From positions 1-36,016 of the IMG/VR virus record IMGVR_UViG_3300037488_002473: a stretch of DNA of 36,016 nucleotides; one strand, written 5' to 3'. The notes under the pieces were generated by a model. That model was not told the DNA's origin. It ran no database searches and saw only the letters and a program-made list of their open reading frames with translations. Position numbers and translations under genes: made by a program. The DNA is from a virus. The first letter of the stretch is position 1, and the number at the start of each line of letters is the position of its first letter. Below, piece by piece: positions 8,755 through 27,211 of the stretch.

Positions 8755-10125
8755 TTATAGGGCCCTGAGCCCGGGCTGTTTCTGTTCCTCTAAGTAATTG
8801 TATGCACCGCTAGACCCATCCACTTGGTCGTCATGCGCCCCATCGTCAAAGGCTACAAGCTCGCTGATATACTCGGCATTCCACGGACCGCGCAATAATG
8901 CGACCTTGCCATGTTCACACGCGGCGGACAAGGGGATTGCTCTGATGCCTTTCTCTTTTGTTACCCTGCGAACATCCACGGGAAACCCCGTCAGATATTC
9001 TACTAGAGAATCAATGTCTGATTTTCCTGCCTGCCCCGGGTCCTCTTCCAGGACTTGCATCACGGTCCCGCCGTCTTGGCTTGCCGTGGACTTTATTGCC
9101 TGCCGCATCCGGCCAGGCGTAAGCCGAAAGCGCGCCACGTCCTCCACGATATACTTGTACGGCCCGGATGCACACTCCAAAAACTTGACCCCCGCCGTCC
9201 AATCTGGGTCTGGGTTTTGTGCGTTGGGTTCTGTTGCTGCCCGGTCCCAATATCGTATGGCCTGCACAATCCCCGGGAGTTCATCCACAATGGGGAGCCA
9301 TATCCGCTTGAAGTAGGAGCCCGCCTCCCGTCTGACTTTCCAATTGCCATCCCTAAGCCGGGCCCGCTCAACGTGCCCAAGTGCGTTCAAGTTTGCCCGA
9401 TAGTTCGGATCCTTTCGCATGAGGATCCGGTTGTCCTCAAGTTTCGCCGGGATGAACGTAACGGACTTGCCCGGCATGTCCTCCCCAAAGCGTTCCCGAT
9501 TGGCGGCCTGAGATTCCTGGGCAGAATTATGCCAAAGTATGGCATCACCATCCCGCAGCATCCACCGCAGGACCCCGGCCCTCTCGGGAATGGGGAAGCC
9601 TGTGTCTTGGTCAATCCACCATTCCAGAAACTTAGCGACCCAAGAGTCAGGGTCAGGGTTGCAAGATGCCCGGACGTATGGACGTACGCCAGAGGTTGAA
9701 CGATTGCGCGACAATAGATAGAAAAACTGAGTCTGTGAAAAGTGTGTAAGTTCATCAAAGCATATCAAAGGAATCTGCGCCCCTTGCCAGTCATATATAT
9801 TTTTCTCATATTGCAGGTGGGAAAAAGAAATTGTTGCACCAGAAGGAAACACCCAGGATAGCGACCCAATGCGGGGCTCCCCTCTGAGGGCCGGGAAAAC
9901 CTGGAAGGAAGTATCCCAGATTGACCCCGCTTTTTTAGCGTCTGCCAGAGTCTTGCGAAAAATTGTAGCTGAATATCTGGGATTGTGGACATTGCGTATT
10001 GCTTCCATCAGAAGGGAGAAGGTTTTGCTCCCGCCTGCCGCGCCCCCAAGTATGGCGATATCTGCGCCGCAAGAAAGGAAACTTTCCTGTGGCCCCTTCT
10101 GTGGTTTTATTGGTGCTGGTTTCAT
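8755..10125 (-). CDS. terL: terminase large subunit
   Basis: The protein has 456 aa with both terminase domains. ATPase part: Walker A-like GGAAGGSKT at about residues 27-35 (a common terminase variant), Walker B LICFDEL at about 120, and the coupling motif ASCNPDP (about 153-159). Nuclease part: RYWDRAATE at about 290 with the first acidic residue, and FDDGAHDDQVDG near residue 436 with the last acidic pair. It cuts and pumps DNA into the head. The start overlaps the stop of the small zinc protein (ATGA), with AAGGTG 5 bases upstream. Similarity is closest to GTA gp2/terminase_6-type enzymes, judged by eye. Confidence 0.95.
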   Translation of the reverse strand: MKPAPIKPQKGPQESFLSCGADIAILGGAAGGSKTFSLLMEAIRNVHNPRYSATIFRKTLADAKKAGSIWDTSFQVFPALRGEPRIGSLSWVFPSGATISFSHLQYEKNIYDWQGAQIPLICFDELTHFSQTQFFYLLSRNRSTSGVRPYVRASCNPDPDSWVAKFLEWWIDQDTGFPIPERAGVLRWMLRDGDAILWHNSAQESQAANRERFGEDMPGKSVTFIPAKLEDNRILMRKDPNYRANLNALGHVERARLRDGNWKVRREAGSYFKRIWLPIVDELPGIVQAIRYWDRAATEPNAQNPDPDWTAGVKFLECASGPYKYIVEDVARFRLTPGRMRQAIKSTASQDGGTVMQVLEEDPGQAGKSDIDSLVEYLTGFPVDVRRVTKEKGIRAIPLSAACEHGKVALLRGPWNAEYISELVAFDDGAHDDQVDGSSGAYNYLEEQKQPGLRAL

Positions 10126-17036: not shown

Positions 17037-18476
17037 ATGGCCCTTTCTTTTCGCTTCCAGAGGCGCCCGCTTAGGGCGCACCAGCGGGACGCCATAGCCA
17101 GATTCAAGGCCGCCCCCTCGGCTTTCTTCGCCATGGATATGAGACTAGGAAAGACTCTCTCTTGTATTCGATGGATCCAAGAGAACCCAAAGGCAAGGCA
17201 AGGCCGGATTGTTATAGTCGCCCCCAAGACTGTTCTGATTCCCTGGGAAGAGGAATTGAAGGCCGAAAGGATCCACTTCATCACCTTGAGGGGATCAGCA
17301 TCCTCAAAAATTGCGGGGCTTTTATTTTCCGGGCCCGGTTCATTCGTTCTAGTAAATTATGAGGCTTTTCTTTCATTGGATTTTGTGCGAACACTTGAGA
17401 AAACCCAGCCTTCCTGCCTGGTCTTGGATGAATCGACCCGCATCAAAGGACACAAGTCCAAGACAACCCAAAACCTCTTGAGAATCTGCGACCTCATACC
17501 ATTCAAGGCCTGCTTGTCCGGGCTGCCCTCCCCCCAAAGCCTTGAGGATCTATGGCCCCAAATGGCTTTTTTGAATGACGGCTGCTGGATGGGATGCTCC
17601 GGGTTTTATCGTTGGAGGGCCCGGCATACCGTGCCAGACCTACTTTCACACGGGCAGCACGGGCGAGAGTTCCCGCCAGCCGAGGCCGCCAAGGTTCGGG
17701 AGGCATTCCAAGCCCAGGCCTTTTGTCTTACCAGAAAGCAAGCAGAAGAGGAATACGGCCTAGCAATGCCTGAAAAAATATACGGAACCCGCTGGGGGTA
17801 CCTGTCAAAGCCCGAGCAAAAGGCGTACAATTATATAATCAAAAATATGGAGCTGCCGCCCGGGCCTTTCCAAAATCTTTCCAGGCGTTTTCGGGAATAC
17901 CAAGAGAACGAAACCCCGGACCCACTACAGCAGGCATCCGAGGCAGACCATCAGATCGTGATCCTCTCTTGGCTTAGGATGCTCCCCGGGTTTCTGCCAA
18001 CCTCCTGGAAGTATGCGGAATTGATAGCAATCATTCGGGACCTCGGGGCAGATAAAGGCCGGGAAAAATTGGTTGTATGGTTTGCCTTTACTCAGGAAAT
18101 GAAACAGGCACAGAAAATACTTGGTGAATCCGGGATTGATTGCCGCCTACTCCTGGGAGAAACAAAGGACCAAGAGAGGCGCCAGATCTTGCGAGACTTC
18201 AACGGAGGACTAGGCATCCTCCTAGTACAACAAAACCTCGGCAAGTTTGGCTTGAACCTCTCCACCGCTTCCACTGCCGTTTATTTTTCCAACAGTTACA
18301 ACCTGGAGGAAAGAGCACAAAGCGAGGACAGGATCTTCCTCCCAGGAAAGCGCAACCTCTTGATCATCGACCTACTCACGAAAGGCACCATAGATGAAGA
18401 AATCCGCGATATTCTCACGACCAAGCGCGCCGTCTCTGCCCGAACACTTGCGCGGCAAGCGCTGGGCAAGCATTGA
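17037..18476 (+). CDS. SNF2-type DEAD/DEAH helicase
   Basis: The protein has 479 aa with two RecA-like domains. Domain 1: Q-like motif RAHQRDAIARF (13-23), Walker A DMRLGKT (34-40, Lys39), motif Ia VIVAPKTVLIPWEEE, Walker B LVLDEST (128-134) and motif III CLSGLP. Domain 2: LVVWFAFTQEMKQA, then QQNLGKFGLNLSTASTAVYF (motif V) and YNLEERAQSEDRIFLPG (motif VI with the Arg). This arrangement is that of phage SNF2-like translocases used in replication or recombination. The C-terminus overlaps the resolvase gene by 83 bp in another frame. No accessory nuclease domain is visible. Confidence 0.93.
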   Translation: MALSFRFQRRPLRAHQRDAIARFKAAPSAFFAMDMRLGKTLSCIRWIQENPKARQGRIVIVAPKTVLIPWEEELKAERIHFITLRGSASSKIAGLLFSGPGSFVLVNYEAFLSLDFVRTLEKTQPSCLVLDESTRIKGHKSKTTQNLLRICDLIPFKACLSGLPSPQSLEDLWPQMAFLNDGCWMGCSGFYRWRARHTVPDLLSHGQHGREFPPAEAAKVREAFQAQAFCLTRKQAEEEYGLAMPEKIYGTRWGYLSKPEQKAYNYIIKNMELPPGPFQNLSRRFREYQENETPDPLQQASEADHQIVILSWLRMLPGFLPTSWKYAELIAIIRDLGADKGREKLVVWFAFTQEMKQAQKILGESGIDCRLLLGETKDQERRQILRDFNGGLGILLVQQNLGKFGLNLSTASTAVYFSNSYNLEERAQSEDRIFLPGKRNLLIIDLLTKGTIDEEIRDILTTKRAVSARTLARQALGKH

Positions 18477-18939
18477 TCCGGGAATCTCTGGGACGGGGGT
18501 AGCGATCTGGAAAGGGGCCATTCTTGAAGATTCCTACTCCATCACGCCCCACGGGTATGATTGGAACGCCAAGGCCCAAGATCTTGTCTTTCGTTTTGGT
18601 GATGAAAATAACCTCCCCGGCTTTTCTGCCCTCTATTATGAAATGCCGTTTATTGACTCAGAGGGCGGGGCCCGTTCCGCAATTTCTGCCAAGACTCAGG
18701 ACGTTGTAAAACTTTGCATAGCGGCAGGAATGATAGTCGGCGCCTTTGTTTCTTGGTGCCCAAATGGCCTCATTTTCCCCATCCCCGTTATAGATTGGAA
18801 GGGCACGATTCCTAAGAAAATCCACCAAGCCCGACTAGAAAAACGCTTTGCTTTGCTTGGCATCACCCCCACCACCAAGACCACCCATGAGCGGGACGCC
18901 CTTGGCATCGGTCTGCATGTTATCTATGGAAAGGGCTAA
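18394..18939 (+). CDS. RuvC-like Holliday junction resolvase
   Basis: The protein has 181 aa with the RNase H-like fold of RuvC nucleases: ASIDPGISGTGVAIW with Asp28, ALYYEMPF with Glu83, and the C-terminal THERDALGIGLHV helix with Glu166 and Asp168 completing the acidic site. The WKGTIPKK segment (135-142) is found in phage versions. It should cut branched DNA before packaging or during recombination. The ATG at 18394 lies within the helicase gene; the 83-bp overlap is large, and the first 20 residues may be dispensable. No nearer ATG exists before the active-site strand, which supports the start. Confidence 0.85.
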   Translation: MKKSAIFSRPSAPSLPEHLRGKRWASIDPGISGTGVAIWKGAILEDSYSITPHGYDWNAKAQDLVFRFGDENNLPGFSALYYEMPFIDSEGGARSAISAKTQDVVKLCIAAGMIVGAFVSWCPNGLIFPIPVIDWKGTIPKKIHQARLEKRFALLGITPTTKTTHERDALGIGLHVIYGKG

Positions 18940-18942
18940 CCC

Positions 18943-20097
18943 ATGCCCCGCTTTACTTTCGCGCCAAAAACCCTCGCACCAGACGCCCCCGGGCATCCAG
19001 ACAACCCGGTAGGCTTTCCCGCCTGCCCTACTGCCCCACGGTCAATAAAGGCCGCACTCCAGGCCTCCAAGCCGGGGGAAGTAAAACACTTTGAGCGCAT
19101 CGACCCCAGACGGGACGGCATCCGGCAGTCAGACCTTGCCCAGTTCCTTCAATGCAGGCAAAAGGCCCGGCTTTGCCAGTGGTTCAATCTCCAACCCATT
19201 GGGGCGAAAAAACATTACTTTGTCCACGGCAATGCCTATCATGACTGCCTGGAAAAAATCTACCGGGGCATGCGGGCCGGGAAAATCAAAACACAAGCGG
19301 ACGTGTCAAAGGCACTAGTCCAAATTGAGACAGACATGCTTGCCAGCCTGCCGAAGGATGCACAAAGCCGGGAAATGCTGGAGGACGTATTGTGGAAATT
19401 GCGTCCAGTTTTCCAAGGATATTTTGCCCACTACAAAAAAGACTTTTCTATTCCTTGGGTTACTGTGGAAGGGCGCTTCCTCGTAGATCTGGCGCCCGGT
19501 ATCAAAATCACCGGGACCATGGACGGAGGCTTCCTCGGGAATGCTGGGGCCTTTTCTGTCTTTGAAAATAAGTTTCGGGGCAGGATTGACGCGGAAAACA
19601 TCACGGACGTTCTGGCCCTGGATCTTCAATTGTCCTTTTATACTCAGGCCGCCCAGGCCTATGGCTACAAGATCGGTCCCAGAGTGTTTAACATCGTTAA
19701 AAAACCGCAGCAACGCCAAGGCAAGAAAGAAAAGAAAAGCGAGTATTCCGCCCGCATCCTGGGGGAAATCATGGACAAGCCAAAAGACTACTACTTCCGG
19801 GAATCCTCGCCCATTTCTCCCCAGGAAATTGCCGCGCAAAAGGTCCGGCTTGTCGGGCTTTGTTCGGCATATCTGGCGTGGTTCGATGGACTCAAAGGCG
19901 ATAGCCAAGACCCGGCAGTGCTGGACATCCTGGCCAACCCTGGGCAGTGTGAGGGCAAGTATGGGGTCTGCGAATACCTCGGCTTGTGCGCCCAAGGTAA
20001 TTGCGGCATGTATGTTGAAACGGACCCACAAGCCCGCAAGGTGCAGTCTTACGAGGACTTACCTCGGCCCGGAAAATCCGCTAAGACGAAACATTGA
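18943..20097 (+). CDS. PD-(D/E)XK nuclease, Cas4/RecB-like
   Basis: The protein has 384 aa. Nuclease core: GIRQSDLAQFLQCRQKARLC (59-78) resembles the first helix of RecB/Cas4-type nucleases; HGNAYHDCLE (95-104); GTMDGG with Asp194; SVFENKFRG with Glu208 and Lys210; and LQLSFYTQA, the QxxxY motif (229-233). A C-terminal Cys cluster, about 335-356 (C.GKYGVCEYLGLCAQGNC), together with Cys71 could hold an Fe-S cluster, as in Cas4 and AddB. It probably processes DNA ends for the annealing ATPase that follows. AAGGG lies 7 bases before the ATG. No CRISPR array or other cas genes are present, so a CRISPR role is not supported. Confidence 0.88.
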   Translation: MPRFTFAPKTLAPDAPGHPDNPVGFPACPTAPRSIKAALQASKPGEVKHFERIDPRRDGIRQSDLAQFLQCRQKARLCQWFNLQPIGAKKHYFVHGNAYHDCLEKIYRGMRAGKIKTQADVSKALVQIETDMLASLPKDAQSREMLEDVLWKLRPVFQGYFAHYKKDFSIPWVTVEGRFLVDLAPGIKITGTMDGGFLGNAGAFSVFENKFRGRIDAENITDVLALDLQLSFYTQAAQAYGYKIGPRVFNIVKKPQQRQGKKEKKSEYSARILGEIMDKPKDYYFRESSPISPQEIAAQKVRLVGLCSAYLAWFDGLKGDSQDPAVLDILANPGQCEGKYGVCEYLGLCAQGNCGMYVETDPQARKVQSYEDLPRPGKSAKTKH

Positions 20098-20153
20098 CGC
20101 CCGGCCCGCTTTGATATTGTCGATTCCCCGCCCACCCAACCCGAAAGTATAAC

Positions 20154-21005
20154 ATGGCAACCATCACCCCACCCAAGACTTTTTCCCTGCCGTCAGAGAA
20201 AAACGTCCCAAGCGATTCCCTGTCCGACTACTCAATTTTGCTTTACGGAGCCAAGAAAATAGGCAAGACCTCTTTTGCCTCTCAGTTCCCTAACGCTCTT
20301 TTTTTATCGACTGAGCCCGGCACAAAGGCCCTCTCTGTTTATTCCGTCAATGTCGGAGACTGGGCCGATTTTCTTGGGTATATCAAAGCCCTTGAGACTG
20401 GCAAGCAAAAATATGGCACCGTCATAGTTGACACGGTGGACCTTGCCTATGAGGCGTGTTTCCAGTCTGTTTGCCGCAAGGAAGGCATCACCCATCCACA
20501 AGACCTTGCCTATGGTAAGGGGTGGAATATGGTACTAACCACCTTTCGCAATGCCATCATGAGGCTTTTTCACCTGCCCGGAAATCCTGGTGTTGTGTTC
20601 ATCAGTCACGATACCGAAAAAGAGTTCGAGGACCGAGAGGGCCGGAAGTTTGACAGGATCCAGCCCACCATGCCGAAGCAGGCCTTGGGAGTAGTGGAGG
20701 CCCTTGTCGATCTGATAATCTCATATCAATATGACGGGCGGAAACGTATCGCCAAGATCCTGGGGGATGAAACAATTGTAGCAGGATGCCGACTCCAAGA
20801 GGATGGCCTCCGGTTCATGGCAAAGGACGGCGCCCCTGTTGAATCCATCCCCATGGGTTCCTCTTCCCAGGAAGCCTTCCAAAACTTTATCCAAGCATTC
20901 AACAATAAGCAAGAAACGGCAACGGGCGAAGAGGAAAAACCCACGCCGAAAAAGCAAACCAAAACCTTGCCGACTACTACAGGCAAAAAAATCCGTTTTG
21001 GCTAG
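20154..21005 (+). CDS. Sak4-type RecA-like ATPase (AAA_24 family)
   Basis: The protein has 283 aa. Walker A is GAKKIGKTS (32-40); Walker B is GTVIVDTVD with Asp93; a sensor-like strand VVFISHDTEKE follows near 143-153. This is the layout of Sak4/AAA_24 proteins, short RecA-like ATPases that help ssDNA annealing in phages and usually work with an ssDNA-binding protein, as the next gene appears to be. The last 40 residues are Lys/Thr-rich (EEEKPTPKKQTKTLPTTTGK), probably a flexible tail. The leader before the ATG is C/A rich with only a weak ribosome site. Confidence 0.85.
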   Translation: MATITPPKTFSLPSEKNVPSDSLSDYSILLYGAKKIGKTSFASQFPNALFLSTEPGTKALSVYSVNVGDWADFLGYIKALETGKQKYGTVIVDTVDLAYEACFQSVCRKEGITHPQDLAYGKGWNMVLTTFRNAIMRLFHLPGNPGVVFISHDTEKEFEDREGRKFDRIQPTMPKQALGVVEALVDLIISYQYDGRKRIAKILGDETIVAGCRLQEDGLRFMAKDGAPVESIPMGSSSQEAFQNFIQAFNNKQETATGEEEKPTPKKQTKTLPTTTGKKIRFG

Positions 21006-21055
21006 GCATTCCGTCTAGCCTGAATCATGGCGCCGGGTTTCAACCCAGGCCCGGC
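21000..21055 (+). terminator. two short inverted repeats after the Sak4 gene (weak terminator or pause)
   Basis: GGCTAG and CTAGCC flank a 9-base loop around the Sak4 stop codon, and GCCGGG (21032-21037) pairs with CCCGGC (21050-21055) over 12 bases, followed by ACTTT. The U run is too short for a strong terminator; it may pause polymerase or protect the upstream mRNA. The next gene starts at 21088 with AAGGAGG. Confidence 0.4.
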
Positions 21056-21087
21056 ACTTTCACCGCCTACCAATAAGGAGGCACCCC

Positions 21088-21918
21088 ATGGGCTTAGGTA
21101 TCAAAATCCCCCGCAACGCGTTAGCACAAGGCCGAGAGGCCTTTGCCGCCAACCCCTCACACGGCGAGAGTGTTTCACTTGAGCCGGGCGAATACTTCGG
21201 ATTGATTGCCAAACTGAAGGCAGTCGATACCAAGAAAGGCCCGCAATTGGTGGCCGACATCACGGTGGGCGAGAACGAAAACAGTCCCGAGGCCAAGGGC
21301 GGGTCTGTTTCGCTTTGGTTCTGTTTTGAACCTGAGCGCATTATTTACCTTTTCCGCTTCCTCAAGTCCCTTGGCTACGGGGACCGCCTGGAAGATCTGG
21401 ACGAGGACTCTCTTTCAGAAATTGCCAAAGAAATCCCCGGCAAAAATCTGGTGGTGAAGTTCCGCGCCACTGAATCAGAAGGCGGGCATATAAATATCCG
21501 CCTCAAAAAAGTAATGGACGAAATGACACCTGACGAAATCGGCCTAGAAGAAAACGCCACCAAGCCCACCAAGGGAAAAGGCAAGCCCACCCCTGGGAAG
21601 AAAGCGCCCAAGGAAGAGGAGCCGGAACCCGAGGCCGAGGTCGGCGGCCTTGGGCATGTCCGGGTGGTTGGGGCCGAAGTGCTTGAGGATGACCAGCGGT
21701 TCGTACTGGCTCTCGCAGGTGATGGTCACGCCGGCCTTGGCGGCGGGTTCGCTGACGAAGAAATCATCGTAAAGGTCGGCTTGGTCTGCAAGACCAAAAT
21801 CAAAGGCAAATTGCAAGAAATCAAAGTACTGAAATTATTGCCGGAAGAAGATAAGGTAATCGCCCAGGTATTGGCGACAGAAGAACAATTCAAGATCAAA
21901 CGCGAAAACCTGGAATGA
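21088..21918 (+). CDS. probable ssDNA-binding protein (DUF669/OB-fold like), with an anomalous insert
   Basis: The protein has 276 aa; AAGGAGG lies upstream of the ATG. Residues 28-160 look like the OB-fold of phage ssDNA-binding proteins that travel with Sak4-type ATPases (LEPGEYFGLIAKLKAVDTKK, then SLWFCFEPE.. and GKNLVVKFRATESEGGHINI). An acidic/Lys linker follows (165-184). Residues 185-225 are Gly/Val-rich and unlike the rest; on the opposite strand this DNA reads as a high-GC3 coding segment (see 21640-21770). Residues 226-276 (VKVGLVCKTKIKGKLQEIKV) form a compact basic domain. Conserved identity is judged by eye only; the position between Sak4 and polymerase supports it. Confidence 0.65.
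   Translation: MGLGIKIPRNALAQGREAFAANPSHGESVSLEPGEYFGLIAKLKAVDTKKGPQLVADITVGENENSPEAKGGSVSLWFCFEPERIIYLFRFLKSLGYGDRLEDLDEDSLSEIAKEIPGKNLVVKFRATESEGGHINIRLKKVMDEMTPDEIGLEENATKPTKGKGKPTPGKKAPKEEEPEPEAEVGGLGHVRVVGAEVLEDDQRFVLALAGDGHAGLGGGFADEEIIVKVGLVCKTKIKGKLQEIKVLKLLPEEDKVIAQVLATEEQFKIKRENLE
21640..21770 (-). other. segment with antisense coding signature inside the ssDNA-binding-protein gene
   Basis: Read on the minus strand, this roughly 130-bp segment encodes an ordinary-looking peptide (DDFFVSEPAAKAGVTITCES, then QYEPLVILKHFGPNHPDMPK) with G or C at nearly every third codon position. The same DNA in the annotated plus frame gives low-complexity Gly/Val sequence, and the flanking plus-strand sequence has the usual mixed third positions. 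It is best read as a gene fragment from a GC-rich genome inserted in reverse. The ends are approximate. An assembly chimera is an alternative. Confidence 0.55.
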
Positions 21919-21982: not shown

Positions 21983-24148
21983 ATGTCGCCCCGCTTTGTC
22001 TTTCGTAGCGCCACCAAACACCAGCCCCAAGGCGCTACGGATGAAAGCGGGTTTTCTGTTTTCTCTTGGGAAAGAATCCACACCATTGCCATTGATACAG
22101 AAACCACAGGCCTTGACCCATGGGGCACTCTTGGGGTAGATCGCAAGTTTGCCCCCTGCCGCCCTTTCTTTATCGCAATTTGCGACACTGAAGGCAATAC
22201 AGCGTCATTCCGCTTTCCAGTCAATAAAAAGACTCGAGAAGTCATATTCCCGGCCAGACCATCGGGAAACCTCCGGGCCCTCTTGGATTGCATCGAAAGC
22301 CCGAACATCACCAAGGTTCTCGCCAATTTCAAGTTTGATGCCTGTATGCTCAAAAAAGCCTTCGGCGTTACGTTCCGGGGCAGGATTGTGGACGTACTAT
22401 TGACGCAATATCTAACGGACCCAACCGCCTACAATATCGACCTCAAAAGCCTTTGCGCCAAGTTCCTCAAAATCTCAACAGAGGACGAGGACGCACTCCA
22501 TGCCGCTACCCTGGAAGGGAGGCGAGAGGCCAAGGCAAAAGGCTGGGCCTTTGCCGAAGAGGTAAAGGCAGACTACCACCTTGCCGCCCCTGCCATACTG
22601 GAAAAATACGGGCGCCTAGACGCCTTCCGCACTATGGCCTTGCACCAAGCCCAACAGGAAGCCTTGAACAATAAAGAGAACGCGGACACACTGTTCGCCC
22701 CAGGGATCGGGGAATTGATAGAGCGCGAGCATGCCGTGATGATGGAATTGATGCGAATGGAAGAGACTGGCGTCCGTATCGACACGGGAACCCTTGCGGA
22801 CCTCTCCGACTTATACAGGGGCATCGTTGAAGAGAACGCCAAAACAATAGCTAAGGAAGCCAAAACAAAAGATTTTAACGTCAACAGTGCCCCTCAAAAG
22901 CAAGTGGAGTTTTTTGGGAATCGAAAACTCACCCCGCTTGCCTACTCTTCCAAAGGGCGGGGTCGTTCCTTGGTTTATTCCCAGTGCCGCTGGTGTAAGG
23001 GTCGAGGGTGCCGGATCTGCCAAGAGACTGGGCGCTCCCCGAAGTGTGACGCGGACTTTCTGGACCATGTTGGGGTGGATCGGACGGGCGGGGGCTTCAA
23101 GCCGAAGGACCGCCTAGCCTTTGCAATGCTGCACCACTCTGCCGCAGATACCATGCTTGGGTTTTGCGAACAATACGGAGAGAAAGCGTGCGAAGAAAAA
23201 GCGTCAGGGATTCCCTATCCCGTCAAGATCCTGCATCCAAACTACAACCAAACCACAGTAAAGACAACCCGCCTTTCTTCATCCAATCCCAACCTCCAAA
23301 ACGTAGCGTCAGACGACTCAGGAAAAAAGAAAACGGCAATCCCTTACAGGGTCCGGGAATTATTTACTCCCCGCCCAGGAAAAGCCTTCCTTGCCCCAGA
23401 CTATTCCCAAATCGAAGTTTGGGTCCTCGCCCTCCTGGCAGGGGACAAGGCCTTCCTGAATCAATTGGCAAAGGGCGGGGACGCCCACCAAATAGTCGCT
23501 GACATGATCTGGCCTGGAGCATACAACCGGGCAACGGTCAAGAAAGCAAAGGCGAAAGAGAAAGCGGGCAAGCCTTTGACAGAGGAAGAAAAGGCAGAGA
23601 AAAAGAAAGCCGCCCGGGTTCGCAAAATCGTCAAGACAATCAATTTCGGCATCATGTACGGGAGCGGGGACGATAAAACGGGCGAGGCAATAGGGGTGAG
23701 CACCGAGGAAGCCCGCAAGATGAAAGCCGAGTATTTTGCAACATTCCCCGCCGTCCAGGCATTCATGGAACGAATCCAGAAGGAAGCCAAGCGCCTGGGG
23801 TACGTTGACTCCCCCTATGGGGTCCGGTATCGGGCAGAACGCGGGGCGGAGTATCGTCTAACAAACTACATAATCCAAGGGACTGCCGCCCAGATCCTCA
23901 AGTCCGGGATGGTAAAACTCGGGGAATTGTTCCGCAAAAAATACCAAGGCCGGTCGGAAATGCTCCTACAGATCCACGATGAATTATTGATCGAATGCGA
24001 CAAGGCCTTGGCCGAGTCGTTAGAGTTTCGCAAGGAAGTGGAGGGGTGCCTTGCCACAGATTGGAAGCGTCTGGGATGCCCGATACCGTTCCCCATCGGC
24101 ATGAAGTTCACAGAAAGCGCCTGGGGCTTTGCAAAGGACGTGGCCTAA
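21983..24148 (+). CDS. family A DNA polymerase with 3'-5' exonuclease and inserted zinc knuckle
   Basis: The protein has 721 aa. Exonuclease: IAIDTETTG with Asp38 and Glu40 (Exo I), LANFKFDACML (Exo II) and YGRLDAFRTM (Exo III), so proofreading should be active. Polymerase: motif A APDYSQIEVWVLALLAGD (Asp473), motif B with RKIVKTINFGIMYGSG, motif C LQIHDELL with Asp666. Motif B carries Phe at the sugar-selectivity position, as in E. coli Pol I. Unusual is an insertion around residues 320-360 with C335-x2-C338, C343-x2-C346 in a CRWCKGRGCRIC pattern like a DnaJ zinc repeat, in the region of the thumb. AAAGGA lies 6 bases before the ATG. It replicates the phage genome with the primase-helicase next to it. 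Confidence 0.95.
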   Translation: MSPRFVFRSATKHQPQGATDESGFSVFSWERIHTIAIDTETTGLDPWGTLGVDRKFAPCRPFFIAICDTEGNTASFRFPVNKKTREVIFPARPSGNLRALLDCIESPNITKVLANFKFDACMLKKAFGVTFRGRIVDVLLTQYLTDPTAYNIDLKSLCAKFLKISTEDEDALHAATLEGRREAKAKGWAFAEEVKADYHLAAPAILEKYGRLDAFRTMALHQAQQEALNNKENADTLFAPGIGELIEREHAVMMELMRMEETGVRIDTGTLADLSDLYRGIVEENAKTIAKEAKTKDFNVNSAPQKQVEFFGNRKLTPLAYSSKGRGRSLVYSQCRWCKGRGCRICQETGRSPKCDADFLDHVGVDRTGGGFKPKDRLAFAMLHHSAADTMLGFCEQYGEKACEEKASGIPYPVKILHPNYNQTTVKTTRLSSSNPNLQNVASDDSGKKKTAIPYRVRELFTPRPGKAFLAPDYSQIEVWVLALLAGDKAFLNQLAKGGDAHQIVADMIWPGAYNRATVKKAKAKEKAGKPLTEEEKAEKKKAARVRKIVKTINFGIMYGSGDDKTGEAIGVSTEEARKMKAEYFATFPAVQAFMERIQKEAKRLGYVDSPYGVRYRAERGAEYRLTNYIIQGTAAQILKSGMVKLGELFRKKYQGRSEMLLQIHDELLIECDKALAESLEFRKEVEGCLATDWKRLGCPIPFPIGMKFTESAWGFAKDVA

Positions 24149-24149
24149 C

Positions 24150-26327
24150 ATGAGAGACAAAACCGTCAAACTTTATACCGCCTTGGGTTTCGACATTGCC
24201 GAAAACAACGGCGGGGAGTTGCGGGCAACCTGCTTGGTATGCGGGAAGCCAAAGTTTTACCTTTCGGACGATGGCGCCTTTGACTGCAAAGGATGCAGCA
24301 TCCGGGGGAATGATCGCACGATTGCAAAAATACTGCATGACAAGATCTATGCCAAAGCACTAGGGCCAAAACAAAAGGCCGCCCTCTCAGAGTGGCGCGG
24401 CATGCCAGAGGACTGTTTCGATTCCAAGTCGCTGGGGTGGGATCCAATCTTCAAGGAATGGACCGCCCTTTCTCCGTTGTCCCCAGGATTGAAGGCCTGG
24501 GGCTTGAAGCGTACAAAGGAAATCAAAGGCAAGCGCCGATTCCTCGCCCTTCCTGGCGGGGAAATGGGGCTTTTCGGGGCAGATCTGATCCAGCCGGGCG
24601 GCAAGGAAACGGTCTATATTTGTGAAGGCGAATGGGACTCCCTTTCCTTTTCTTGGCTGCTTAAGGCAAACAATGCCCGGGCCTATGTTGTAGGCGTCCC
24701 CGGTAGTACAACCTTCAAGGATGAATGGGTCGAATGGATGCGGGGGCGTAAGATCTGCGCCCTCTTGGACAATGACAGGGGCGGCTTGGCAGGAAATGGG
24801 GTTTTGAGGAAGCGCCTTGGGAATGTTGCCGCGTCCATTCAATATCTCCATTGGCCCGCCGACTTAGACGGCAAGTGGGACGTTGACAAACTTATACAAG
24901 AGGAAATCCCAGAACGCGACCCCGCCGAAATCCTGGAAGGAATAAAGAGAAATCTCAAGGCAACGATCCAGGGAAGCACCGAGGACAAAGGAAAGAAAAC
25001 CACCCAGGAGCAAGCCCAAGAGGCAACGGGCCCCGAAGCAATCGACCCCAGCACCGTCCCTCAAATATCCTACAAGGAATTGCACGCCTGTTTTGGCAAG
25101 TGGTATCACCTGCCTCAGGCCTTGCGGGACGGCTTGGACATAGAGATTGCCTGTCTCTTTGCCGCCAAAATGAACCTGAGGCCCGCCCCTTGGGTCTATC
25201 TGGTGGGCCCGTCCTCGACCGGAAAATCCATGCTAGTGGAAAGCCTGGACGCCTTGGAAGAGGCCGTTTTTCTTTCCGAAGTCCGAGGGACAACCTTGGT
25301 TTCCGGGTTCTCCGTCCAGGGAGGCGGGGATCCTTCAATGCTGGCCCGGTTCAACGATTTTGGGAGTGGTGCGTCAAAGTCTGTTCTACTTGTGGGCGAC
25401 ATGTCAGTCACCATGTCTCAGGGTTCGGAGGAAGTCCAACGGGTCCAAAGTCTTTTGCGTGATATATCAAATGGGCGCATGTATGCCGCCTATGGTAACG
25501 GAGTGATTAGAGACTATAAAAAGTTGCACGTGGCAATCCTGGCAGGTGTGACCATGGAAGTTTGGCGCATCGACACCCCGGAAATGGGGGAACGCTTTGT
25601 TAAGTGTATCGTTTGCCGATCCTCAGGCCGGGAAAAGGACGATCGTCTAGCGTCAGAAAAAGCCGTCAGGAATACCCCATTCAGAAAAGAAATGGAGAGG
25701 GAAACAAAAGAGGCAGTCATCGGCGCAATGAAGCGCCCGATTCCCGAGGTTATACCCTACCCCGCTCCTGAAAATATGGGGCCTTTTATTGATCTCGGTA
25801 TATTTTGCGAAAGGATAAGGGGTTCGTCAAAAGTCGATAAGTTCACAAACGTACAAGAGACAAACACAAACCACGCAGGCGGGACTCGCTTTGCCACTAC
25901 TCTTGCAGTCATAGCAACAGGGGCCGCCGTTCACCTGGAATGCTCGCCCACTGATGAAAGGGTTCTCCGATTGGTTCGCAAGATCACCCGGGACACCCCA
26001 AACCATTACCGAATGATTTTGGTCAAGGCTTTGTATGACATGTACCAAAAAAAGCCTTTCATGGTTCGAGAGGTTATCCCTTCAATTTATCGGGACATGA
26101 CCACGGAGACCGCAGAAATGGAGACTGCCGCCCTTTTCCGCATGGGGGTGATTCACAAGACCAAAACACTTTGCCCGGACGGGGTGGAGCGCATCGCCTG
26201 GGAACTAGACAAAGGCATCCATGCACTCATCAAAAAACTCAGGCTTTTCGAGGACCTAGACCAATCTGACCCCTTTTCCATATCCTTCATCCCCAAACAG
26301 ATGACCATCACAAGGAAGAAACAATGA
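24150..26327 (+). CDS. primase-helicase (zinc finger, TOPRIM, AAA+/SF3-like ATPase)
   Basis: The protein has 725 aa. N-terminal CHC2-like zinc finger: C28-x2-C31 and C46-x2-C49 (CLVCGK, then FDCKGC). TOPRIM core: VYICEGEWDSLS with Glu159, and CALLDNDRGG with Asp207 and Asp209. A Gln/Lys-rich linker spans 270-300. The C-terminal ATPase has Walker A LVGPSSTGKS (351-360), then SVLLVGDMS as a Walker B-like strand, and HVAILAGVTMEVW as sensor 1. This combination primes and unwinds DNA at the fork. The last 120 residues look like a winged-helix domain. The ATG at 24150 follows the polymerase stop within 2 bp. The upstream frame extension is not used. Confidence 0.9.
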   Translation: MRDKTVKLYTALGFDIAENNGGELRATCLVCGKPKFYLSDDGAFDCKGCSIRGNDRTIAKILHDKIYAKALGPKQKAALSEWRGMPEDCFDSKSLGWDPIFKEWTALSPLSPGLKAWGLKRTKEIKGKRRFLALPGGEMGLFGADLIQPGGKETVYICEGEWDSLSFSWLLKANNARAYVVGVPGSTTFKDEWVEWMRGRKICALLDNDRGGLAGNGVLRKRLGNVAASIQYLHWPADLDGKWDVDKLIQEEIPERDPAEILEGIKRNLKATIQGSTEDKGKKTTQEQAQEATGPEAIDPSTVPQISYKELHACFGKWYHLPQALRDGLDIEIACLFAAKMNLRPAPWVYLVGPSSTGKSMLVESLDALEEAVFLSEVRGTTLVSGFSVQGGGDPSMLARFNDFGSGASKSVLLVGDMSVTMSQGSEEVQRVQSLLRDISNGRMYAAYGNGVIRDYKKLHVAILAGVTMEVWRIDTPEMGERFVKCIVCRSSGREKDDRLASEKAVRNTPFRKEMERETKEAVIGAMKRPIPEVIPYPAPENMGPFIDLGIFCERIRGSSKVDKFTNVQETNTNHAGGTRFATTLAVIATGAAVHLECSPTDERVLRLVRKITRDTPNHYRMILVKALYDMYQKKPFMVREVIPSIYRDMTTETAEMETAALFRMGVIHKTKTLCPDGVERIAWELDKGIHALIKKLRLFEDLDQSDPFSISFIPKQMTITRKKQ

Positions 26328-27211
26328 GCGCCAAAGTAGAGGCCCGGCTTTCCGCCCTCCGACAATACATAGAGGCGAGGCAGGCCGCCTATATCCTCCA
26401 CCGTCAAGGGATCGTGGAATCACCGGACTATATTTTGAGGGCCTACCGATTCCCCAACGTCATACGAAACCAAGACAAGACAACCCAATGGATACAAGAA
26501 ACCTGGGCCCGCCCGTACTATAAACACCCCCGGCTTTGGTTCGCTTTGATTCTGGCCCGAGTGTTCAACTTACCCCGTACCCTTTCCCTGCTGGGGTTTC
26601 CTGGGCAGGGGGACCCAAAGGAATGGCGCGATCATGCCTTGCAGGTTTTGGCGTTCATCCGAGAAAGCGGGACGCCTGTCTTTTCTTCCGCCTACCCCAT
26701 CACCCCACACGGGCACAAAGGCGACAAGGCCCGCATCATCGTCCATGATTCCTTGTACCCGGCCCTAGTTTATTTTTCCCAGGAAAGGACCTGGGAAACC
26801 CCTAGAGCCCTGGAAGAGATATGGGGCATTCTCATGCTGCACCTAGGCCTCGGCCCTGTGGTCTGTTCTGAAATTGCGGCAGATTTTTCATGCACAAAAT
26901 ACCACCGCCAAGGCACGGACTTGTGCCTGTGGGGCTTTGTTTCCCCGCCCGCAATAGACGCCCTGTGCCATATTTATGGGCGCCAAAAAATCGACCAAGC
27001 CGAGGCCCGGGAAATGGTCCGGGAGGTTCGCAAGGTCTGGCCCGAAAAAATCCCGTGCCCTTTCTTTGTGGATCTTGAGCACACCCTTGTCGGGTTTTCC
27101 CGTTATCTCTCGGCAAAAAACGGGAGCCCCATATCCAAGAAAATACCGAAAATCCAAAGCCCTGGGGCTGGCCCTGACGGGCTTCCCTGGGCGAAAGGTG
27201 CAAAGCCATGA
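26324..27211 (+). CDS. thymine-hypermodification-type helical protein (HMUDK_hel / aGPT-Pplase-like)
   Basis: The protein has 295 aa. Residues 17-125 match, by memory of the family, the helical domain of phage 5-hydroxymethyl-dU DNA kinases and the alpha-glutamyl/putrescinyl-thymine pyrophosphorylase-like proteins: RAYRFPNVIRNQDKTTQWIQ, HPRLWFALILARVFNLPRTL, and VFSSAYPI. Residues 172-190 (HLGLGPVVCSEIAADFS) resemble a helix-hairpin-helix, and a late D-LEHTL-GFSRYL segment is conserved too. The family is linked with modified thymine in phage DNA. No dUMP hydroxymethylase, kinase or transferase partner is visible in this genome, so its substrate is unknown. It overlaps the primase-helicase gene by 4 bp, tying it to replication. 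Confidence 0.8.
   Translation: MSAKVEARLSALRQYIEARQAAYILHRQGIVESPDYILRAYRFPNVIRNQDKTTQWIQETWARPYYKHPRLWFALILARVFNLPRTLSLLGFPGQGDPKEWRDHALQVLAFIRESGTPVFSSAYPITPHGHKGDKARIIVHDSLYPALVYFSQERTWETPRALEEIWGILMLHLGLGPVVCSEIAADFSCTKYHRQGTDLCLWGFVSPPAIDALCHIYGRQKIDQAEAREMVREVRKVWPEKIPCPFFVDLEHTLVGFSRYLSAKNGSPISKKIPKIQSPGAGPDGLPWAKGAKP

Follow-up and report, generated by a model that had tools for sequence, protein, structure and literature searches.

The stretch of DNA analysed here (hereafter the window) comprises the 36,016 nucleotides of the viral record IMGVR_UViG_3300037488_002473 and carries a replication operon in which the gene for a 295-aa protein, P0001, directly follows the primase-helicase (Table 1). 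The genes are tightly joined: the start of P0001 overlaps the primase-helicase stop by 4 bp, as a sequence-only reading of the window had it, and its own stop overlaps the start of a 99-aa ORF in the same manner. The RuvC-like label within the operon was assigned by eye, without a Pfam match.

Table 1. Features of the replication operon and of P0001 in the window, with the corresponding gene clusters of three relatives (L172, L064 and L016, see below)
Feature	Position	Strand	Basis or remark
Other genes of the shared replication operon: SNF2 helicase, RuvC-like, PDDEXK, Sak4/AAA_24, 276-aa ORF	17037..21918	+	
Family A DNA polymerase	21983..24148	+	PF00476; 59% to L172
Primase-helicase	24147..26327	+	phrog_47; 71% identical to L172
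ATGA overlap, primase-helicase stop and P0001 start	26324..26327	+	sequence
P0001, 295 aa, divergent HMUDK_hel (PF18723) protein	26324..27211	+	Pfam, profile, conservation, AF2 model
HhH-like GLGP (residues 175-178), then invariant D187 and D199	26846..26920	+	alignment, fold neighbours
SPPAIDALCH in place of family motif GPGxxRGLNR (residues 207-216)	26942..26971	+	alignment, motif comparison
LVGFSRY in place of family motif LCExDKY (residues 255-261)	27086..27106	+	alignment, motif comparison
ATGA overlap, P0001 stop and 99-aa ORF start	27208..27211	+	sequence
99-aa ORF overlapping P0001	27208..27507	+	no Pfam or PHROG match
Replication operon with HMUDK_hel and the cluster after it, in relatives	L172:12140-15996; L064:9917-11541; L016:5136-9196		TAGT = PF20691

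P0001 belongs to HMUDK_hel (PF18723), a family that aids the synthesis of modified thymine in the DNA of other phages. This is its sole Pfam match (E=2e-14; 54.1 bits, cut-off 25), which bears out the membership proposed in the earlier reading; the PHROGs match is phrog_2396 (E=7e-19), and a profile built during the analysis from 79 relatives, with P0001 left out, returns 166 bits (E=8e-49). The motifs quoted in that proposal are genuine: RFxNVxRxxD and W72/F73..A78-R79..N82 are among the best-conserved positions of the family. P0001 keeps R19, D35, R42, F43, N45, R48, D51, R79, N82, Y124, K135, D187 and D199, and with them the whole of the invariant N-terminal and HhH core (N45, R48, D51, D187 and D199).

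Two C-terminal motifs, GPGxxRGLNR and LCExDKY, are 82-100% conserved in the family sample and both are absent from P0001 (G207S, G209P, R212D, G213A, N215C and R216H; C256V, E257G, D259S and K260R). Given this absence P0001 is, on its sequence, classed as a diverged descendant of HMUDK_hel and not as a functional member. Pfam returned no match of P0001 to PF18748 or any other kinase family, nor to the amino acid:DNA transferases (AADT, PF18724); no GxxxxGK[ST] P-loop occurs in the sequence, and a profile comparison with AADT gave no significant link.

The AlphaFold2 model (80-row alignment) is confident and essentially all-helical (pLDDT 91, pTM 0.88). Its resemblance (TM 0.70-0.78) is to the predicted HMUDK_hel of phiRSL1 (TM 0.78 in BFVD), PhiW-14 (0.70) and Lucky3, and to the helical part of the SP10 5-hmdU kinase (0.72). 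No sequence relatives of P0001 were found in the PDB; among the folds there, HhH glycosylases and the PaMx11 glycinyltransferase PUGT come nearest, each matching weakly with E of 0.18 or worse. Foldseek gave the glycosylases a probability of up to 0.80 at a TM of about 0.3. An HhH-like GLGP segment had been claimed for P0001: the segment is there, followed by the invariant D187 and D199, but the match to the glycosylase fold is weak.

The contig is closed, since it bears a 107-bp direct terminal repeat. A Pfam search of about 40 of its ORFs recognized a ligase, the SNF2 helicase, the PDDEXK nuclease, an AAA_24 protein (Sak4 in PHROGs), the family A polymerase, and capsid, portal, terminase and tail proteins. 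The same search found none of the enzymes of thymine hypermodification that were looked for – dUMP hydroxymethylase (a TS homologue), the PF18748 HMUDK kinase, the PF18724 AADT, the PF20691 TAGT – and no other glycosyltransferase, and HMMs built during the analysis for kinase, TS, AADT and TAGT matched no ORF of at least 70 aa. A modification pathway hidden in another frame was rejected on this last result. The description of the genome as closed and devoid of visible pathway genes is thus upheld, as is the suggestion that P0001 acts without partners.

Elsewhere in the window, the large terminase (8755-10125) shares 53% identity with its counterparts in Methanoculleus viruses L4768 and Blf4 and in Rhizobium phages. 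PF06199 tail-tube genes occur twice, one near each end of the contig (192-1472 and 35158-35571), which makes them neighbours on a circular map; the one at 192-1472 is far longer and has an additional C-terminal portion.

Syntenic relatives and the divergence of P0001

Three IMG/VR contigs share the replication operon of the window: L172 (of which L014 is a part), L064 and L016. In L172 and L064 the shared order runs SNF2, RuvC-like, PDDEXK, Sak4, 276-aa ORF, polA, primase-helicase, HMUDK_hel; L016 shares it only from the 276-aa ORF onward. L172, the nearest relative, is a single 16-kb fragment. The HMUDK_hel start overlaps the primase-helicase stop in every case (ATGA in L172 and L064, GTGA in L016), and in all three contigs an ATGA joins HMUDK_hel to the next start, that of a radical SAM or a TAGT gene. 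The claim that P0001 is coupled to the replication operon accordingly finds support both in its ATGA overlap and in its identical position in these relatives.

What follows HMUDK_hel differs. L172 has a radical SAM/B12 gene, a TAGT and a TS homologue; L016 has two TAGT-like genes, a TS homologue and a YfbR-like gene; L064 has a TAGT, and the contig ends soon after, before any TS is visible. In the window the 99-aa ORF stands in place of the relatives' TAGT (3/3) and TS (2/3). The clusters of the relatives look like a pathway for 5-hydroxymethyluracil (5-hmU) glycosylation that does without kinase and AADT, and in which the TS homologues are, judging from context, probably dUMP hydroxymethylases. 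Single-protein scans found no close relative of P0001 (best identity 33-34%) or of the primase-helicase, and those with polA and SNF2 returned distant relatives only.

Seven replication genes of the window are 50-71% identical to their counterparts in L172; for HMUDK_hel the figure is 34%. Among L172, L064 and L016, HMUDK_hel is 55-57% identical and polA 42-49%. Relative-rate tests on HMUDK_hel count 74 changes against 12 with L064 as outgroup (p=5e-12) and 79 against 19 with L016 (p=7e-10), and for the other seven genes all p values exceed 0.1. Among the operon genes tested, excess change thus appears confined to P0001 (p<1e-9), although it would be only apparent if an in-place replacement had occurred. 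Of 57 columns conserved to 80% or more, P0001 departs from the family at 23, the highest count among 80 sequences (median 4). Its losses are unevenly placed: 13 of 41 residues are kept after residue 200 as against 43 of 72 before it (p=0.006), with 25 of 33 kept in the N-terminal core at residues 41-95.

The frame is nevertheless intact and free of stop codons, when neutral simulation to 34-65% identity yields 6-10 stops on average and not one stop-free copy in 300 at any level. Codon-position G+C is like that of the neighbouring genes. Together these two observations – stop counts and G+C, not dN/dS – argue for a P0001 that retains a function under altered constraints. Trees give it an end branch of 3.6-5.2 and no firm placement; AU tests do not reject a grouping of P0001 with the syntenic genes (p 0.23 and 0.25), and orthology with the relatives' HMUDK_hel rests on gene position.

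Partners of HMUDK_hel in phages and plasmids

In the characterised phages M6, Sonora, Pam3 and PaMx11 HMUDK_hel sits between the genes for the kinase and the TS homologue, with polA and primase close by. A one-motif search recovered 493 relatives from viral contigs, a sample biased toward P0001-like sequences. Of the viral loci that have 5 kb or more on each side (68), a TS homologue is present in 59 and a kinase in 14; nine have none of TS, kinase or AADT. With a flank of at least 4 kb the loci number 101: TS plus TAGT (38), kinase plus AADT plus TS (23), TS alone (20), none (15), kinase plus TS (4) and AADT plus TS (1). The usual partners had been given as hydroxymethylase, kinase and transferases. 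For the TS homologue this is correct, but kinase and AADT occur at a minority of loci and the TAGT class is the largest; kinase and AADT as the rule for HMUDK_hel were rejected. In pelagiphages TS has been reported alongside aG/PT-PPlase1, and some of them have a TAGT-type transferase close by (PMC9599517).

TAGT (38 loci) and kinase and/or AADT (28 loci) never occur together at the 101 loci. Fisher's test of this exclusion gives p=7e-5 with near-copies removed; a tree-aware pair test, for which there are too few pairs, gives p of about 0.25. The two kinds of locus are interleaved on the HMUDK_hel tree, and TAGT and kinase never change in the same way. That HMUDK_hel keeps company with one or the other, never both in this sample, suggests that it is a shared 5-hmU-DNA module for alternative enzymes. 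By the same token some of the solitary TAGTs of phages, a group with a role described as open (PMC13216743), may be 5-hmU glycosyltransferases.

Solitary HMUDK_hel genes are likewise found on plasmids and on other viral contigs, so P0001 is not unique in being an orphan. The copy on Flagellatimonas plasmid NZ_CP092105.1 (L008, 8001-8849) stands alone with intact C-terminal motifs; the plasmid also has BREX PglX, a dUTPase, a PD-(D/E)XK nuclease and a helicase. A viral contig of 463 kb (L023:9102-10831) has an orphan right after a nucleoside hydrolase gene (PF01156) beside a clamp-loader gene. An Acinetobacter plasmid copy (L009:7959-8911) has been annotated as a pair of short neighbouring genes and is probably broken. 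In L008, L021, L023, L071, L103 and L113 the C-terminal motifs are largely or fully intact, so solitude alone does not explain their loss from P0001.

Readings of P0001

On balance we favour the view that P0001 is a survivor from a 5-hmU glycosylation pathway that has since been lost, and is now probably a DNA-binding pseudo-enzyme. Its ancestor would have been the HMUDK_hel gene of a 5-hmU operon attached to the replication operon of the group, in the order still seen in relatives: polA, primase-helicase, HMUDK_hel, (radical SAM), TAGT, TS homologue. The lineage of the window would then have lost TAGT, TS and, if ancestrally present, the radical SAM gene, and would have retained HMUDK_hel, joined to the operon by ATGA overlaps. 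To go by its weak and distant resemblance to HhH glycosylases, the HMUDK_hel fold may bind DNA, flip bases and offer the 5-hmU in that DNA to a modifying enzyme: a kinase in some phages, probably a glycosyltransferase in others. Since GPGxxRGLNR and LCExDKY are gone, with the N-terminal and HhH core still in place, P0001 is most likely past supporting 5-hmU modification, and would be produced along with the replisome as a DNA-binding pseudo-enzyme.

We infer from the three relatives, one of which (L064) ends before TS, that the pathway was lost rather than never had. Because the syntenic relatives keep the partner genes, loss in the window lineage is the simplest account; gain of partners in the relatives is less likely. 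Reliance on host enzymes, one of two options offered by the sequence-only reading, draws no support for the same reason; the new role that was its other suggestion is possible, to judge by the changed motifs and the rate. One form of such a role, which we hold to be rather unlikely, is that HMUDK_hel is a general reader of 5-hmU-DNA, at the service of either a P-loop kinase or a TAGT, and that P0001, once freed, shifted to unmodified or other bases, which it would read or flip at the replication fork.

Several explanations compete with that of a retained survivor. The gene could be a decaying relic, functionless after the loss of TS and TAGT and on its way out: the excess change falls on the window branch only and family-invariant residues have gone. 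Even so, the gene shows neither stops nor frameshifts, when a neutral copy should carry 6-10 stops, and the overlaps retained at both ends, the neighbour-like codon-position G+C, the well-kept N-terminal core and the confident structural model all make decay unlikely. Distinctly unlikely, in our estimation, is an in-place replacement, whereby a distant HMUDK_hel, or an orphan copy from a host or plasmid, took the place of the original gene and only gave the semblance of speed. The tree by itself does not join P0001 to the syntenic genes and stand-alone copies do exist on plasmids; a newcomer would nevertheless have had to fall into the exact position with both overlaps kept, the AU tests leave room for a grouping with the syntenic genes, and no closer source was found.

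A part in counter-defence or exclusion, with P0001 binding or acting on the 5-hmU-type DNA of competitors or shielding the phage from a host defence keyed to modified DNA, would fit the stand-alone homologues in bacteria, one of them on the plasmid with BREX PglX. It would also fit the recent validation in phage defence of 5-hydroxymethyluracil kinase and thymidylate synthase domains, with aGPT-Pplase a predicted defence domain (PMC13092281). We nonetheless consider it very unlikely, as the gene sits in a replication operon and the six orphans named above have, unlike P0001, largely or fully intact motifs. Least credible of all is an active enzyme that uses host-made 5-hmU or host transferases: it has the retention of D187 and D199 in the core in its favour, yet the window encodes no source of 5-hmU and P0001 has lost two motifs common to members of the pathway.

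If P0001 is indeed such a survivor, the window and its syntenic relatives form a natural before-and-after pair – an HMUDK_hel gene with and without its pathway – in which the changed residues are pinpointed.

Comparison with known systems

Among known proteins HhH DNA glycosylases (OGG, Mag1, AlkA) resemble P0001 weakly in fold and, like it, have an invariant Asp some 22 residues past the hairpin, but no Foldseek match is better than E 0.18. The amino acid:DNA transferases (PaMx11 gp46/PUGT, PDB 8z2m and 8z2n) likewise have a weakly similar fold, along with an HhH-like GxGP...D segment, although the profile evidence keeps P0001 apart from them. The plasmid HMUDK_hel genes of Flagellatimonas, Acinetobacter and Natrinema are, like P0001, single genes with no modification cluster nearby; plasmids are however a different genomic setting, and the Flagellatimonas copy keeps the C-terminal motifs that P0001 does not. 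The PF18723 HMUDK_hel/aGPT-PPlase1 proteins M6 gp55 and Sonora gp042 and the helical part of the SP10 kinase agree with P0001 in profile, fold and N-terminal core; P0001 differs in its 27-31% identity to them, its want of a kinase, AADT or TS partner and its missing C-terminal motifs. Nearest in setting are the HMUDK_hel, TAGT and TS clusters of L172, L016 and L064, in the same operon and at the same position beside the primase-helicase, from which the window departs in having no TAGT, TS or radical SAM gene and in the 31-34% identity of P0001, against 55-57% among the relatives. The family of P0001 is already known; what is new here is a divergent orphan of what appears to be a lost 5-hmU operon.
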